From Thozetella sp. PMI_491 (taxonomy: Eukaryota > Ascomycota > Sordariomycetes > Chaetosphaeriales > Chaetosphaeriaceae), in assembly GCA_021432635.1 (NCBI GenBank), contig MU270032.1, positions 992,001 to 1,056,000 on the forward strand: DNA of 64,000 nt, in the 5' to 3' direction. The notes under the pieces are model-generated. The model saw nothing but the letters and a program-made list of their open reading frames with translations. It did not search any database and had not been told where the DNA came from. Both the position numbers and the translations under genes were made by a program. Shown piece by piece: positions 2,566 through 40,152 of the stretch. Each line of letters begins with the position of its first letter. Within the stretch, counting starts at the first letter, position 1.

Positions 2566-5500
2566 ACCCACAATGGTACATGATTCCGGACGCAAGCATA
2601 GAAGCCGCCACGGTGCGCGGCGATATCAAGACCATAGCAGAAGCTGGTGCAGGTGGACTTGAATTAGTCTCATTCTTCAATTACGGCAGAGGACCAATAC
2701 TGACAGACTGGACCGAGTACGGGTTTGGCACCCCGGCTTTCTAAGAACTTTTCCGCGCTGCATTGAACGCATCTGCGGGATCAGCCTTAACGTTCGATTT
2801 CGCGTTGGGCCCAAACCAAGGCCAAGGTGTGCCATCAGAGCCTGAAACACCGGGCCTTGTCTTCGAACTGGTGTATGGGAGCACAACGGTTCAGGCCGGC
2901 GAGTCTTTTAACCACACATTGCCTGCCCCGATTCTGCACTTCAACTACGACGCGCAGGCGATATTCATCAATACCCCTCTTCTGTTTGACAACAGCACCC
3001 TAGTAGCCGTCGTTGCAGCCGAGCTCGTGTCAAACTTGTCAGGAGGCGGTGTTCTTAAGGAATCGAGCGTAGTAGATCTCACTAGCCAAGTCACCGATGG
3101 CAGCCTTTCATGGGTTGCCCCAGCCGACGCTGAGAGCTACGAACTGTTTGCTTTCTACGAGAGATATACCAATGAGAGGAACTGCATCTCATTTGAGAAC
3201 GCCCAGGACTGTTCTGGGCAATGGGTCTTTCATGGTTGATCACTTCAGCGATCTTGGAGCCAAGAAATTGACAGAGTTTTGGGACCAGAATCTGTTGGAC
3301 GATGTGAAATCCGAGCGACGCTGGCAGAGGCTAGAGGTTACTGTAAGTCTACCTCCTCGGGCCCAAACAAGTTTATATATCCCCCACGATGACAAGAGCG
3401 TATCCAATTTTGCAGCATGGGAGGTCAGTCTTGAGATGTTGGCGGCGTTATGGTGGACCCCAGATTTTCTCGATCGATTCCAGAGCGCTAGGGGCTACAG
3501 CGTGGTAGGCTGCCTTCCCGTACTCTTCCGAATCGAAAACGCATGGAACTTAGTCAATGCCCCTTACAACAAGACCTTTGTTTTTGACACGGACTTGAGT
3601 AAGAACGGCGGACAGTGTAATCAGGACTATCGTACCACGCTCAATGAGGGCTATCAGGAGTACTTGTCACAGCTCCTGACATAGGCGACCTCCCTAGACA
3701 TACAACATTTTACTCAACCGGCCTACAACCTGCCACTCGATAGGGTGCGCCACTCTTCATCCCCCCATGCATATTTCTCTCGCTACAAAAATCGTGAATA
3801 CAATCCTAGTTTCGGCTCGATCCCATCATTGATAAAAGCTTCATGTGCAGATGGCAGATTACCAGTATCCCGGGGCCCGGAGTGCGAGAGTAGCCTCCAA
3901 CGAGACTATTGACGCCTACAAGCAAATTTACCAGAGCTGCACACTTAGCGAGAAAAACAACCATCTCCAGCGAAGAGGGAGCCGAGGCCATTGGAGCCTA
4001 CGCCATGTCCATCATCCCTCGTCTCCCCGGCCTTGTGCAGGGATCCTTCGCTGCCGGGATCAACACCGTAATCGTCCATGGCTTTCCGTACACTGGCAAC
4101 TATCCCGGGACCACCTGGCCCGGCTATTCGCCATTTGTGTACCAATTCTCGGAGATTTTGGGGCCACGCACGCCGACCTGGAGGCATATCAACGACAGCT
4201 TACTATACACTGCACGCACCGCCTACGTGATCAAATCGGGGACCCCACGTGTCAATTTGGCATTTTATTGGTTTGCTCAGACGTTCTCTGCGTATGAAAT
4301 TTACGGCGGTGCGGACTTTAGAGCTGCGGGTACGTATACGAATGCTCTCTCTAGGGCGTAGTCGTCAATTATTAGTGTACATGTCTCACCTGGAACCACA
4401 CGGGTTACACCCACAAGTACCTAGGGCCGGCCAATCTTGCTTCAACAGAGGTCATTGTTTCAAACCAAACTCTTGCATCTGATGGCCCTGCCTATCAGGC
4501 TTTAGTGCTCTACAACCAGACTTTCATAACACCGACGGCGGCGCAGCGCTGGTTAACTTCGCCAGAGAAGGTCTTCTCATCTTCGTTGTAGGGACCTTTC
4601 CCACTGTCACAATAGGGAACACTGGGCAGAATGAGGTCTCCGCGAGCATGGCTAACCTCAGAACCCAATCCAACGTCTAGTTCATGTCAGACAATGACTT
4701 TGGGCCTGACGTCCTTGCCGCTGTCAGTGTGAACCCTAGGATAGGCGTCTTGTCCTCGGCCCAGGGAAGTGCCGCACAGCTCTACACGACATGCAGAAGC
4801 GATGCGACTGAGGGCCTCGAAACTGCATTTCTTTACAACCGCGGTGCCGCGGACGTGTTTAGGCTTAGCGTGAATGCCCAGCCAGGGTCGAGGCCCTGGA
4901 CTCTGGACGCATGGACTGGCGTGCAGGCCCCTCTTGCCATCTACACCCGAGAGAATAACTCGATTGTAGTGGACCTGGAGCTAAAGCAAGGACAAACAGC
5001 TCTTTTAGGCTTCACATCTAGCCAGGTGGGTGACCCTGTGATTCATACCACCGGTCACTCAGACAACATCGCCAATGTTCGTTCACCCAGGACGGCTCCC
5101 TCGAGGCGTGGGTGCGCGAGGATGGAAACAATGCCACACTCTCTCTGTCTAAAGGCACCTTCATAACTAATCTCTCTGGGAAATTGGTCTCCAGTCTGTC
5201 TTTGGGATCGTGGGATCTGACAATCGACTCCTATGTCCCGCTAGATGTATCTCGTCGGCCCAAGGGGAGATCCAATCGCTCGATGCCGTGCAGCTGCCTG
5301 TATTGATCCCCTGGACCCAAATCTCGGGGCTTGAAACTATCAGCAGGGTCGGTGTCTACACCACTGAATTTACAATCTCGGCAGAGACACCCGTTTCCTC
5401 CCATGCATAGTCCTAGGTTTGGGACCCGTCTTAAACACCATCAGAGCCTGGGTTAATGGCAGACTTCCGCCGCTAGACCTGGCGGACCCAACTGCAGACA

Positions 5501-31059: not shown

Positions 31060-32718
31060 CTAGCCGCCTGTATCCTCCTGGCTCAAACCGAGCGCATTAG
31101 CCTTGAACCAGGGCCAATAGACATTCTCCGTCCATGCTGCCAGGCGCTGGATACCCCAGAACGCCCGGTACACCCCAAGAGGGTCCGAGGTGGCACCGAA
31201 GCGCCGCTCCTGCCATAGGATAGTTTTCTGGTGGTTGCGGGTGGTGGCAACAAATTCCCAGTTGTGACCGTCCACGACGATGCCGGGCAGGAATGGGAGC
31301 CCATCTAGCGAGCCCCCGGCCTGGGCCGCAAGCCTTTCGAGGAGCCTCCAGTGTGCCATGTGCCAGATGCCGATCTGCAGCTGCGCCTCCTGCGTGTCCG
31401 ATGCCTTGCGCTTCTTCGTCTCGACACTGACCGTGAGCGGTGTGTTGCGGAATGGTGGGAACTCGGTATGATTCACGACATTTCCGGGCAGCCGCCGGCG
31501 GATCGCTCTGACTGCCTCCTGGGCTGCTGGGTCAGAATCAAGGCTGGGGTCGAGGAAGAGACTAAAGTCGACGCTCTTAGTCGTCATATCAGAAAGAAGG
31601 TACTCGGACATCACCGCTGCCGTGGTACTGGTCGAATAAAGTATCAGCTCTGCGAGGCTCTTACTAGATATTGGGGGAGGGGGGACGGGGAGCAAGTGAT
31701 CATGTCTACATACCAAGGCTCAACTCCGGCCAGCCTTCGCTGCTCAACCCCACCAGAGCTCTCTTCAGGCCCGTTTATCGCTGCGCAGAGCAGAGGGCAG
31801 TGGACCAGCATATTCCACCCCGATTCCGCCTGCTCCTTCTCTTGGCATCTCTTGGCGCTCTGCAGGATGGACGTAACGGTTTCCACCGTTGGGGCAGATC
31901 CAATGCTGTCTCGAGCAGAGGGCGAATCGGCGTACATGAAATCATGAAATTCGAAGGAAGGGTCTCGAAGGGCTCGTCGTTCGATAGAGTCCTATTTATC
32001 ACCGCCGACAAGCAGGCAGAAATCAGCATGTGCATCCACAAGAGTCGAGAGGATTCGGTACGACGGGGCTAGTGAGAGCGTCGCTTACCTTGTCAGCCGG
32101 AGAGAGCACATGATATCCAGTCTCGCACCGGCTCATCTCTTTAACAAAAGCGGCCAACGGGGCCGGTAGCGAAGGGTTAGAGAGATCTAGCTGGCGCGAC
32201 TCGAGGCCGTCGTCCTTGACCTCGAGAGCAGCTATCCTCTTCCGTGGCGAGGATCTGCCCGAGGCGCGCGAAGAACCCGAAACCGAAGACCGTCCGGATT
32301 CGGAAGCTGCGTGTGATACTGCTGCGGAGAATGCAGTATTACGGGCGGCCCGGGGCGTGATCATGCTCTCCTCATCTTCAGTTTCACCCCTCATGACGCC
32401 CGCCCTCTCGGGGCTGTCGAATCGGCCTACCGTCGCCTGGCCGGTCCGCCGCCTCTTAGGCTGTGGCTGTCCGGGAGTTGCACTCTCAGACATTTCGACG
32501 AACTCGGTTGGCGGGGAATCCGGGGGCGAGAGAGGATGTTGTCGTGCGCCGTCGCGCCGTCGTTTGGTGCCGTGGCTGCTGCTAGCCGTCGCACTCTCGG
32601 CCTGCCGAACGAGCTCGATTTCGAAGTCGCAAGGCTGTAAACTGGCAAGTGAATCAATCCAGTTCTGAATATCGATGATTTCCCTCATGGCTGGGAGGGC
32701 GATGGCGGGTGCAGTCAA
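31060..32718 (-). CDS. Fungal PD-(D/E)XK nuclease-like protein
   Basis: Three exons (32718-32090 region ending at 32089, 31991-31714, 31663-31060) give 503 aa; introns 31992-32088 (97 bp, phase 0) and 31664-31713 (50 bp, phase 2). The N-terminus has the family's FEIELVRQAES start, KRRR motifs and a Ser/Pro-rich low-complexity region with possible nuclear signals. The middle exon carries APTVETVTSILQSAKRCQ and WNMLVHCPLL. The C-terminal nuclease-fold core shows VDFSLFLDP (Asp335), SVETK (Glu384, Lys386) and AQLQIG (Gln397), that is D...ExK...Q. This matches the lineage-expanded fungal PDDEXK-like domain proteins found in accessory regions, whose role is not established. Metal-binding residues look intact, so nuclease activity is possible. 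The exon model is strongly supported by frame and family order. Confidence 0.9.
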
Positions 32719-35034: not shown

Positions 35035-36728
35035 ATGAAGTATCTCAGCATCTTTGGGGGGCTTGGCCTCTCCCTGGCCTCCCTGGTACTTTCTCAGGAA
35101 GCTGGACCGTTGGCTCCTGCAGTGCAGCCTGTGCGACGTCAGTTTTGTGGTATGTTCGAGGACTGTGAGGGTATGTTGCGCAACTCTTGAATGTGTAGCC
35201 ATGAGCGAGCTCCTAACTGCAAAATTCTCCCCTAGACGAGTGCGGGCTGAATCGTGACTGTGAGGCGGATGAGGTTTGTCGCCAGGGTCAGTGTGTCGCC
35301 ATCCGTAGCACCACCCGGCTGCCGCTGCCCAGGAACAGCACTGCTCGCGTGCCGACAGCCACCACCCGGCCTGCAAACGTCACCGCCGGTCGGCCCACCG
35401 CCAGGCCGACCGCCGCCTGTAGATGGGCTGGGCACTGTGCCGGTGAGCCGTCACTCCTAAAGAAATGCTGTACACGACCGGCTGCTGACAGAGTTTCTAG
35501 GGGATCTCTGCGAGACATATGATGACTGTGACGGGAATATGATCTGCCGCTCTGGCCGCTGCGCTGCTCTCAATGCGACAATGACTACGCGGCAGCCGAC
35601 TGTCCCAAGTCGACCAACAATTACTGGCCGGCCGGCGAACACAACCCACATCACGATTACGCGCCGGCCCACGACGACCTTGGAGCCCCCAGCGAGACCG
35701 ACCAGCTCCTGCGATTGGGCCGGACATTGTGCTGGTAGGCACTCATAGCCCTCTTTCGTAGCCGACTCATCTCTGACATGATAATATCTAGGAGATCTGT
35801 GTGACGACGAGGATGACTGTGATGGCTTGATGATCTGCCGACAGGGTCGCTGCGCTGCCCTCAACGCGACCTTGACAACTGGGCGGCCGACCCCACCTGT
35901 GCGGTCTACGACGATAAGTGCGTCAGCAAACTCAACCATCACGCGGCGGCCGACCCCACCTGGGCGGTCTACGACGATAAGTGCGTCAGCGAACTCAACC
36001 ATCACGCGGCGGCCGACGGGCCCTGTACGGTCGACGATTAGCCCTTCGGTGAACTCGACCATCACACGCCAGCCGACACCCCCGGTACGGTCGACAACGA
36101 TCAGCCGGTCAGCGAACTCGACAATTACACAGCGGCCAACGACCCCAGTGCGGCCAACCCCCACCGTCCGCTCCACGAGTTCTAGCCACGACAACAGCAC
36201 CAGCCGCGCGACTACAAAGCCTCTACCCCCGACCTCGCGGCCAACTACCCTGCAGCCCACAGCAAGACCGACGGCGCTGTGCAGCTGGGCCGGACACTGC
36301 GCTGGTAAACACCCCTCCACAGAGACTTGTTGAAGAATCCTACCTGATGCCCTCGCCAGGTGATGAGTGCGAGACATATGACGATTGCGATGGCGACATG
36401 ATCTGCCGCGCCGGCCGCTGCGGCCCTCTTCTCGAGACTTCGACATCGCCGGCAAGACAGCCCACCACGACACATCCAGCAACAACAAGCAGCCCCACGA
36501 CTACTCGGAGTACCCCCACTATAGGCAGGCCGATCACCAGTCGCCCTGCAGGCGTGGCTCCGGGATGTAGTGCGAACAACGCGGCAGGCTGCGTTGGTAT
36601 GTGCGGCTTACCGTACACTGCCCCAATACTGAAACGAGCTAACACCCAATATAGGCCATTCCTGTAAAACTGACACCGATTGTGGCTCCGGTCTCGTACT
36701 CTGCAAGGCCGGGACGTGTAGCCTCTAA
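35035..36728 (+). CDS. Secreted modular cysteine-rich protein, symmetric exons
   Basis: Six exons (35035-35170, 35236-35442, 35501-35734, 35792-36304, 36360-36596, 36655-36728) give about 466 aa with a signal peptide (GLGLSLASLVLS). Introns are 55-65 bp and all lie in phase 1, so the four internal exons (207, 234, 513 and 237 bp) are multiples of three. Each intron falls at the same place in a repeated module. A module is C-x4-DC-x5-C-x4-C, as in LCETYDDCDGNMICRSGRC, followed by a Thr/Pro/Arg-rich linker with N-glycosylation sites and WAGHCAG. The five modules resemble dickkopf-like or small carbohydrate-binding cysteine knots, but I do not recognise the family. The fourth exon has an expanded linker of 63-bp repeats. 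An alternative first donor at 35150 would shorten exon 1 by 21 bases. It is likely an extracellular protein with repeated ligand sites. Confidence 0.85.
35884..36150 (+). repeat. 63-bp in-frame linker repeat
   Basis: Units beginning CGGCCGACCCC start at 35884, 35947, 36010, 36070 and 36133, with periods of 63, 63, 60 and 63 bp. The first two are almost identical. They encode 21-residue Thr/Pro/Ser linkers of the type RRPTPPVRSTTISASANSTI, each with an N-glycosylation sequon. Confidence 0.9.
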
Positions 36729-37654: not shown

Positions 37655-38629
37655 TTAGGCGCTTGCGCTAGGTGCCGGGGGTTGCTGAGAACCTGTGCGG
37701 GTGCGTGTCTCAAATCCGCTTCGCGGAGCCCCAGTCGGCACGCCGGAAGGTGGAGGCCCCGAGGGAGCTGCCCCGGCGCCAGACGGGAAAGCGCCTGAGG
37801 GCATGGGCCCAGATGGAGCAGGTCCAGTGGGTGCAGAGCCGGATGGAGGAGGCGGCGGGGCGCTGGAGGTCGCACGACGGGCAAGTTCAGTGGGAGCGGC
37901 GCCCGACGGAGGGGTTCCCGAAAGGGGAGAGCCAGAAGGAGGGATGCCAGAAGGCGGGGCTCCGGACGGAGGAGTGTCTGAAGGTGGGGCACCGGAGCGA
38001 GCAGCATCAAATGCGCCAGAGGGTGCCGGACCTGATGGAGCAGCTCCGGATGGCGGAGGGCCAGAGGGGATAGCTCCCGAAGGCGGCGGGCCGGACGGGG
38101 CAGGACCGGAGCGAGTACCGGAATCTTGTCGCTTCTGCACGCTGGTGGGCAGCGCAAGGGGTGTTCCCGAAGGAGGAGCTCCCGATGGGGGAGTACCCGA
38201 GGGAGGTGGGCCAGAAAATGCGCCAGAGGGAGGGGGCCCGGTAGGGGCGGCTCCAGAGGGCGGTGTGCCGGAGTGCGGCGGCCTAGACAAGGCCGGCCCC
38301 GAGAAGGCGCCAGAGGGGGGAGAGCCATTGGGCGAGGAAGCCGTCGTCTCCGCCCTCCGCTCAACTCCGGTAGGCATATCCGAAGGCGGCACACCCGAGG
38401 GCGGCGCACCAGTAGGAGAGCCAGACGGGCGAGGGGGCGGCGTGCCAGAAGGAGGAATACCGGTAGGAGGGGCGCCGGATGGCATGCCGCTCGGGAAACC
38501 CGAGCCCATGGGCGGCGGTCCGCTCGGGGTAGCATCGAGAGAACTGACGTCCCTAGCAATGTTTGGCCCGAACCGGAAGGCCGTCACCGTGGTGGAGATC
38601 AGAGCTAGTGCGACTGCGTTGACCTTCAT
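37655..38629 (-). CDS. Secreted Pro/Ser/Gly-rich protein with Kex2-like sites
   Basis: Single exon of 324 aa with a signal peptide (VNAVALALISTTVTA). Nearly the whole mature part is made of PPSGAPPSG-like units. Three dibasic sites break the series: ERRAE (91-92), QKRQD (166-167) and ARRAT (251-252), spaced 75 and 85 residues apart. Kex2 would cut after each in the Golgi, giving four Pro/Ser/Gly-rich segments. This layout fits fungal Kex2-processed repeat proteins, some of which are surface hydrophobic peptides or precursors of modified peptides. The segments here are long and low in aromatic residues, so a wall or matrix role is at least as likely as a peptide product. The 321-residue frame on the opposite strand is a shadow of the repeat. 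The neighbour across the next gap is a P450. Confidence 0.85.
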   Translation of the reverse strand: MKVNAVALALISTTVTAFRFGPNIARDVSSLDATPSGPPPMGSGFPSGMPSGAPPTGIPPSGTPPPRPSGSPTGAPPSGVPPSDMPTGVERRAETTASSPNGSPPSGAFSGPALSRPPHSGTPPSGAAPTGPPPSGAFSGPPPSGTPPSGAPPSGTPLALPTSVQKRQDSGTRSGPAPSGPPPSGAIPSGPPPSGAAPSGPAPSGAFDAARSGAPPSDTPPSGAPPSGIPPSGSPLSGTPPSGAAPTELARRATSSAPPPPPSGSAPTGPAPSGPMPSGAFPSGAGAAPSGPPPSGVPTGAPRSGFETRTRTGSQQPPAPSASA

Positions 38630-40152
38630 CTTGTCTCGTGGGAAGACTGAAGCTGGCTAAGTTCGGGGTGACAGACGAGCTCGCAAGCAGTGACAAGGGC
38701 TAGGCACAAGTAGAAGAGAGGAATCAGAACGAGTACCTGTCTCGGAGGGATGAATTGAAGTCAAATATGAACGCAGAGAGCGGAGAAAGGAAGAGGAAGA
38801 AACGTGAAGGTTGATATGCTGTGTTGGAGCTGGATGAGCTAAAGATCAAGACATGATTCTAGGAAGCATCGCATCCTTTTATCCCCAACCAGCCTCGATG
38901 AGCTCACGTCGGCCTCTTCCAACTACAAGAGCCTAGGGCCACCAAGAGGATCATTACGACATCGCGTTCAATCTACTTGTGGCTTACAACGAACACACAA
39001 GCAAAGGGACAGCCCCTCTACGAGTTCACGGCGATGCGCCACCAGGGCTAGCACCGGACGACGAGGATCTGCGGCTTGCGGACAACGACGACTTGACGTG
39101 GATCCCAATATTTGCGTTTCCAAGCGAACCCCCTGGCTTTCGCGGCCCTAGATCGCTATTCGCCGGTTTTGTTTGCTCTGAGATCCACTTGATCGACTAC
39201 GGCCTGGCCACCAGCCCAAGGTGCCAGCTCAGCCAGTATAGGGCTGGGATGGTGGGGCCGCGCTCAGCCCACCGGCCGTCCGATTGCACCCCTGGCGGGT
39301 CCAGCTTAGAGCTCGGCTAGACACCAACAGACGAAGCATGGGCTGGAAAGGGGGTGGGGAGCTGACGACGCCTCCCAGCGAGCCATGCCAGGCCAGGGGA
39401 TCGGCGCAGGGGAACGGTCGCCGATAAACGTCGCCGCGGGGAGGCGTTTCTTTTTGACAGTGGCATGTTTCACGTTGATGCTTTGGGTGAACCGGACCCT
39501 AAACCAGGCTCATAGCTTCCGCACTAGAACACCCCAAAGAGACTGCATCTTGCCATTGCGTGTCCAGGGCCCCGCCTCAGTTCGACTCCAAAATCTGAGG
39601 GAACCAATCGCCCCTCCAGAGCATCAGCATCGCGGGCCGAGGTGCTTCGGCACATCCTGCGGGTTGAGGACTTCGCGCCTCTTGGCACAATGACTCGAGC
39701 CTGGGCTTCCGGGAGGCTGTCTACGCGCTACCGCCACCACACCGCGGCACCCACCAGCAGTGGGGACCCGGGCTCGTCACCAAGACCTTTCTATACTTAG
39801 CACATCTATGATTCGGATGATCCGCAACCTCTCGCCACCGGTGGTTTCAGTCGCGACTCCTGGCTGGCCAAGGGGCTAGGACACTGGCAGTCTGGGCCGT
39901 GGTTGCTCGTGAAGGCTTGGGATTCTCACCCGAATCGCGCCACGCGCGTTCGATAGAAGTCAATAAGCTGATCTCAAAGCGAACGGATCATATCAAGTCC
40001 CGGTGTGCCACGTAGGTCACTTCGTCACATAAGCCCCCTCACTAAATATTGGGGCTAGCTCCTCGATCGAAAGAACACACAGCCATTATTATGTTCTATC
40101 CAGTCCAAACTTCTCTCCTCATATCCAATACTCTTACTAAGAACTTCGAATC
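38630..40152. other. Intergenic
   Basis: About 1.5 kb upstream of the Pro/Ser/Gly-rich gene and beyond the 3' end of the P450 gene. Short frames occur, but none has a recognisable domain or splice structure. Confidence 0.5.

Follow-up and report, generated by a model that had tools for sequence, protein, structure and literature searches.

A predicted secreted fungal protein with five DUF7107 modules, each split at the same point by a phase-1 intron

The window (the whole 64,000-nucleotide stretch of DNA analysed here, which lies within contig C18) carries on its plus strand, at 35035..36728, a gene with six exons and five GT-AG introns, whose CDS of 1401 nt, including the stop, encodes a product of 466 residues. 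The gene structure modelled by a first-pass annotation was confirmed at the level of the sequence. Exon 1 (35035..35170) encodes a signal peptide, as judged by eye, a short pro-region with a dibasic VRRQ, and the first two cysteines (Cys1-Cys2) of module 1. Each internal exon then encodes the last four cysteines (Cys3-Cys6) of one module and, beyond a linker, the first two of its successor: exon 2 (35236..35442, 207 nt) joins modules 1 and 2, exon 3 (35501..35734, 234 nt) modules 2 and 3, exon 4 (35792..36304, 513 nt) modules 3 and 4 across a long Ser/Thr/Pro linker, and exon 5 (36360..36596, 237 nt) modules 4 and 5. Exon 6 (36655..36728) encodes Cys3-Cys6 of module 5 and the stop. The introns measure 55-65 nt (intron 1, 35171..35235, 65 nt; intron 2, 35443..35500, 58 nt; intron 3, 35735..35791, 57 nt; intron 4, 36305..36359, 55 nt; intron 5, 36597..36654, 58 nt), and every one of the five contains one CTRAY branch-like site 12-19 nt upstream of its end. 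All five are phase 1 in this model, as had been claimed, and the four internal exons, with phase 1 on both sides, are symmetric 1-1 exons. Their predicted dispensability was reproduced in silico: each of the four single skips kept the frame and left 24 cysteines in four complete modules. Retention in silico of intron 1, 2, 3 or 4 gave a truncated protein of 51, 140, 196 or 372 residues, respectively, and retention of intron 5 altered the protein end. On the minus strand, a 347-codon stop-free stretch (35460-36500) runs antisense to the exons and introns of the gene and is perhaps a by-product of composition and repeats.

The 30 cysteines of the product form five six-cysteine modules, located from Cys1 to Cys6 at 35146..35294, 35418..35562, 35710..35853, 36280..36421 and 36566..36719 of the plus strand and split by introns 1 to 5, respectively. 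Their plan is C-x5-C-x4-C-x5-C-x5-C-x4-C, with x3 between Cys2 and Cys3 in module 1 and with x7 and x6 loops in module 5. Of the two motifs said to be common to the modules, C-x4-DC-x5-C-x4-C was found in four of the five, the last module having x6 between Cys4 and Cys5, and WAGHCAG was confined to modules 2, 3 and 4, modules 1 and 5 being divergent. The assertion that all modules are cut at the same point stood in 5/5 cases: the intron interrupts a codon between Cys2 and Cys3, that of the residue two places after Cys2. The equation of exon with module did not stand, since an internal exon is a permuted unit in which a linker separates the second half of one module from the first half of the module that follows. 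For this reason, skipping a single internal exon joins two half-modules into a whole one.

The linkers are rich in Ser/Thr/Pro (34-62% of the measured stretches), and the protein contains 10 N-glycosylation sequons. The exon 4 linker holds a tandem repeat of 63 nt in 4.1 copies (35882..36137, plus strand), and the repeats carry NST sequons. Such linkers, the sequons and the linker minisatellite would fit a structural glycoprotein of the wall or spore surface, whose modules would serve only for disulfide cross-linking while the glycosylated linkers had the working role, as would the Pro-rich, secreted-looking ORF that adjoins the gene. Against this, the spacing of the module and several of its non-cysteine positions are kept across genes, enzymes included, and we regard a purely structural role as rather unlikely. 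Four dibasic sites were also present, the VRRQ just before module 1 and three RRP in linkers, and a three-module paralogue in the same genome likewise has a dibasic site before its module 1. These sites raise the idea of a Kex2-processed precursor that releases separate modules. Kex2, however, disfavours dibasic sites before Pro, which is the setting of three of the only four sites, and no dibasic site was found between modules 1 and 2 or between modules 4 and 5 of the window protein; we consider such processing very improbable.

In a Pfam search the whole window protein matched DUF7107 (PF23416) with 40.9 bits against a cut-off of 24.6, and four stretches were matched. It is thus a member of a catalogued family, which corrects the statement of the first-pass annotation that the domain family was unrecognised; DUF7107 itself is a 48-position profile with no named function. 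Single modules scored below the cut-off on their own (15.7-21.7 bits; 21.7, 20.7, 15.7 and 17.5 bits for the four window modules scored singly, which were the two before and the two after module 3). No Pfam family other than DUF7107, and no GH75 match, was found in the window protein at E up to 1, and searches of NCBIfam and of PDB sequences (E up to 1) with it returned no match.

We then consider the genome (72.3 Mb, 157 contigs), in which five further genes with the split module or a part of it were found. The paralogue on C72 encodes 187 aa with three modules and three introns and scored 35.7 bits against DUF7107. Two genes, on C1 and C84, encode GH75 chitosanases with one C-terminal module each, and a gene on C2 encodes a 208-aa protein with one module. 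The single modules of C2, C1 and C84 scored 21.7, 18.7 and 18.0 bits, all below the cut-off, and the grounds for counting these single-module genes as kin are limited to the cysteine frame, the motif and the shared intron. The fifth gene, on C12 (L019, reverse complement 2170-2961), encodes a protein that is Gly-rich and looks secreted; its final exon, which follows a phase-1 intron, encodes a single half-module, Cys3-Cys6. The gene is possibly an exon-shuffling product, or else a decayed member. The family comprises at least six genes, a lower bound because the genome searches score only the best candidates, so that a divergent intronless copy may have been missed.

A six-frame search of the genome with the DUF7107 profile (E up to 1) gave 10 matches, none above the cut-off, nine of them in the six family genes and one at L017; this threshold admits chance matches, since one of 14 control genomes also matched. 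A pattern combining the front half with a donor site matched 14 times in the same genome, a raw count not clearly above chance because a reversed control pattern gave 11. Seven of these were read as module front halves (C1, C2, three on C18, C72 and C84), retained for the GHC motif and a half-module downstream, and the other seven had no back half within about 200 nt. Uninterrupted W-type modules gave four pattern matches (one for the control), none of which proved on reading to be a module. The term DUF7107 was not found in a search of the open-licence literature, nor did the titles and abstract openings of the open-licence matches listed contain an account of the module family or of its chitosanase link.

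L017 itself (2899-4920, minus strand, on C1) is an intronless 673-codon ORF with a glycosidase-like front, as judged by eye, followed by eight tandem CSWGC-type repeats. It reached 17.4 bits against DUF7107 (E 0.475) and was left out of the family because its repeat spacing differs; if it were kin after all, it would be an intronless counterexample. A query made from the repeats gave eight matches at E up to 1, every one of them inside the L017 gene. Pfam gave no family for the whole protein at E up to 0.1 or for its first 360 residues at E up to 10, a repeat piece (a partly blended query) gave no DUF7107 match at E up to 1, and a PDB search with the first 477 residues was empty at E up to 1. 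The C2 protein, which looks barrel-like by eye, was likewise set aside in that respect: Pfam assigned no family to its first 155 residues at E up to 10, and the PDB gave only four unrelated matches (E 0.43 to 1). Elsewhere in the window, the minus strand carries a Pro-rich ORF of 333 codons (37658-38656) with a signal-peptide-like start, as judged by eye, and SGPPPSG-type repeats, for which no Pfam family was found at E up to 10, and an ORF of the PD-(D/E)XK nuclease superfamily (31063-31719; PF20516, 183 bits). Zn2Cys6 regulators are also present, and the gene content points to a filamentous fungus.

All 12 module introns found in the six genes (5+3+1+1+1+1) are phase 1 and lie at the same place, the C12 intron being judged from the Cys3 side. 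Introns at unrelated positions in homologues, which the first-pass annotation had named as refuting its view, did not occur among the family genes found in this genome. Among the non-module introns of the related genes and the module-free GH75 gene, six of nine are phase 1 as well and three are phase 0, so it is the position of the intron, not its phase, that carries the signal. According to a study of Fusarium verticillioides core genes, 172/534 introns are phase 1 (PMC5677156), and from that rate the chance of five phase-1 introns out of five would be ~0.35% if they were independent. Introns copied from a single ancestor lack that independence, however, and uniform phase alone is therefore weak evidence; the shared intron position is the strong part of it. 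Pairwise similarity among the five window introns was unclear, the two best z values among the ten pairs being 2.7 and 2.1, so that the introns offer no direct view of exon duplication itself.

The number of modules differs by exon units: the window gene has five modules and the C72 paralogue three, with the same junctions, in one gene pair of the same genome. At non-cysteine positions, window module 5 and paralogue module 3 are reciprocal best matches (50%), and the first modules of both genes match best (36%), the paralogue's being tied with window module 4. Window modules 2-4 are 70-83% alike and 61-70% like the middle module of the paralogue. Fixed end modules with a differing internal number are the pattern predicted by internal exon gain or loss; this comparison is outgroup-free and leaves the direction unset. 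We propose that an ancestral module held one phase-1 intron and that module copies kept it, by virtue of which the stretch from intron to intron would be a 1-1 exon; the copy number could then change by whole exons between the fixed first and last modules, leaving the frame and the modules unbroken.

The same arrangement might have arisen with no exon-driven evolution at all, if ordinary unequal exchange within the gene multiplied the modules and the introns were carried along. This account competes with the evolutionary half of our reading only. The divergence of the window introns, the frequency of phase 1 in the other introns of these genes and the 63-nt repeat in exon 4, which suggests local slippage, all speak for it. 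The varying unit nevertheless corresponds to the stretch from one intron to the next, the end modules being fixed. In the C12 gene, a Gly-rich protein carries nothing of the module but its terminal half, on an exon attached at the same phase-1 junction, although this gene could be a decayed member. We hold unequal exchange to be a serious contender, at somewhat less than even odds.

Three full-length GH75 genes (PF07335) were found in the genome, and those on C1 and C84 end in the split module, in one case after a Ser/Thr linker and in the other almost directly after the enzyme part. The third (L043, 884-1917) lacks the module and has a GPI-anchor-like hydrophobic tail, as judged by eye; two further weak GH75 matches lie on C20 and C36. 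Enzymes with carbohydrate-binding modules have this architecture, a catalytic domain and then a small module at the C-terminus. Fusion to a carbohydrate-active enzyme, as expected of such a module, was thus seen in two of the three full-length GH75 genes and is absent from the window gene. The link between GH75 and the module rests on two genes of one genome, and a survey of eight Aphanocladium album GH75 proteins counts against a general rule, because a figure legend in it names only GH75 and alginate-lyase domains (PMC10223446).

The presence of the module at the ends of chitosanases suggests that it binds wall sugars, its copy number changing one exon at a time. Our main reading, to which we assign a probability of roughly 0.5, is that the gene encodes a secreted multivalent protein, a putative binder of a wall polymer (chitosan, chitin or a related one), with a copy number changed by whole exons. 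Five DUF7107 modules would sit on Ser/Thr/Pro-rich, sequon-bearing linkers like beads along a mucin-like string. Disulfides would hold the fold of each module, and the ligand, bound in the fashion of carbohydrate-binding modules, would be chitosan, chitin or a related polymer of the wall; several modules in a row would give higher avidity. Among the 11 full modules of the family genes, eight have Trp at the third place and seven have W-x-G-H-C; a surface Trp could stack on sugar. Neither the Trp nor the GH motif is present in modules 1 and 5 of the window protein, and the five modules therefore need not all act alike.

A profile of the 11 full modules, searched against 177635 sequences, ranked the kissper region of kiwellin first (two sequences, PDB 4pmk and 4x9u; E 0.0068). 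With E up to 10 there were 15 hits, which comprised, beyond kissper, one unrelated enzyme and 12 small peptides, which by their names we take to be cystine-knot peptides. The kissper segment scored 24.0 bits, where its shuffles with fixed cysteines averaged 4.3 and 0/5000 of them reached it, a test that flatters kissper because it is the best of 177635 sequences; a squash inhibitor segment scored 14.8 bits and was reached by 5/5000 shuffles. The activity of kissper in lipid bilayers is pore formation. This ranking, the shuffle result and a published mention of kissper activity in synthetic lipid bilayers (PMC9813671) would accord with a secreted knottin-like activity, whether in defence, against microbes, as an inhibitor or on membranes, the protein then being a multi-headed peptide or effector and not a sugar binder. 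Fusion to GH75 chitosanases suits a targeting module better, short cysteine-rich matches are prone to convergence, and the sixth cysteine is placed differently from that of kissper. We judge such an activity unlikely, though well worth keeping in view, and retain the sugar-binding reading.

On its ordinary side, the gene encodes a secreted cysteine-rich fungal protein of a catalogued family; what is uncommon is the phase-1 split module common to six genes and its link to chitosanases. In a small fungal family with the same phase-1 intron in every copy found, with whole-exon differences in number and joined to chitosan-degrading enzymes, ordinary genomics and binding assays can directly address both the question of exon shuffling in fungi and what an uncharacterised Pfam domain does. 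As a speculation that we think doubtful but attractive, the fungus may use class 1-1 exon shuffling, treated as restricted to animals in one review (PMC8001218), to multiply and spread a split, kissper-like, putative wall-polymer-binding module through a five-module string, a three-module paralogue, two chitosanases, the small C2 secreted protein and, as the terminal half-module exon only, a Gly-rich protein; the plant kissper and the fungal module could even share ancestry, each with a double-psi barrel partner. The abstract of another paper takes exon-domain agreement to be widespread among eukaryotes (PMC6547436).

Several known systems invite comparison. The EB module (PF01683) and Dickkopf_N (PF04706) resemble single modules in cysteine pattern, with all scores below the cut-offs, and, unlike the GH75 chitosanases, the window protein has no enzyme part of that family. 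Kissper (4pmk, 4x9u) shares the C-x3-C-x5-C-x5-C-x4-C core and the DCDGxxICxxGxC residues of modules 2-4. It differs in that only five cysteines are in shared spacing, the sixth lying upstream in the window modules and downstream, as an extra cysteine, in kissper. Kissper is N-terminal to a barrel in kiwellin, whereas the module is C-terminal in the chitosanases, and the combination of a kissper region and a double-psi barrel in one protein, which defines a kiwellin, was not seen in the window protein, where Pfam found only DUF7107 (E up to 1). One paper describes kiwellins as not present in fungi and counts one among 783 fungal species (PMC9813671). Another reports that a soil-virus chitosanase, which its authors relate to GH75, has a double-psi barrel like that of kiwellin, which gives a lead: a small module of the kissper sort may accompany a double-psi barrel in plants and in fungi (PMC9485262).

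An evolutionary parallel is with the class 1-1 exon-shuffled modules of animals, which are likewise extracellular and cysteine-rich and whose phase-1 introns, too, fall mostly in Gly codons, a pattern discussed in the same review (PMC8001218). The window gene shares with them symmetric phase-1 exons (207, 234, 513 and 237 nt) and, in one gene pair only, whole-exon differences in copy number (five modules versus three). Its introns lie inside the module, between Cys2 and Cys3, and not at module borders, and the host here, unlike that of the animal systems, is a fungus.
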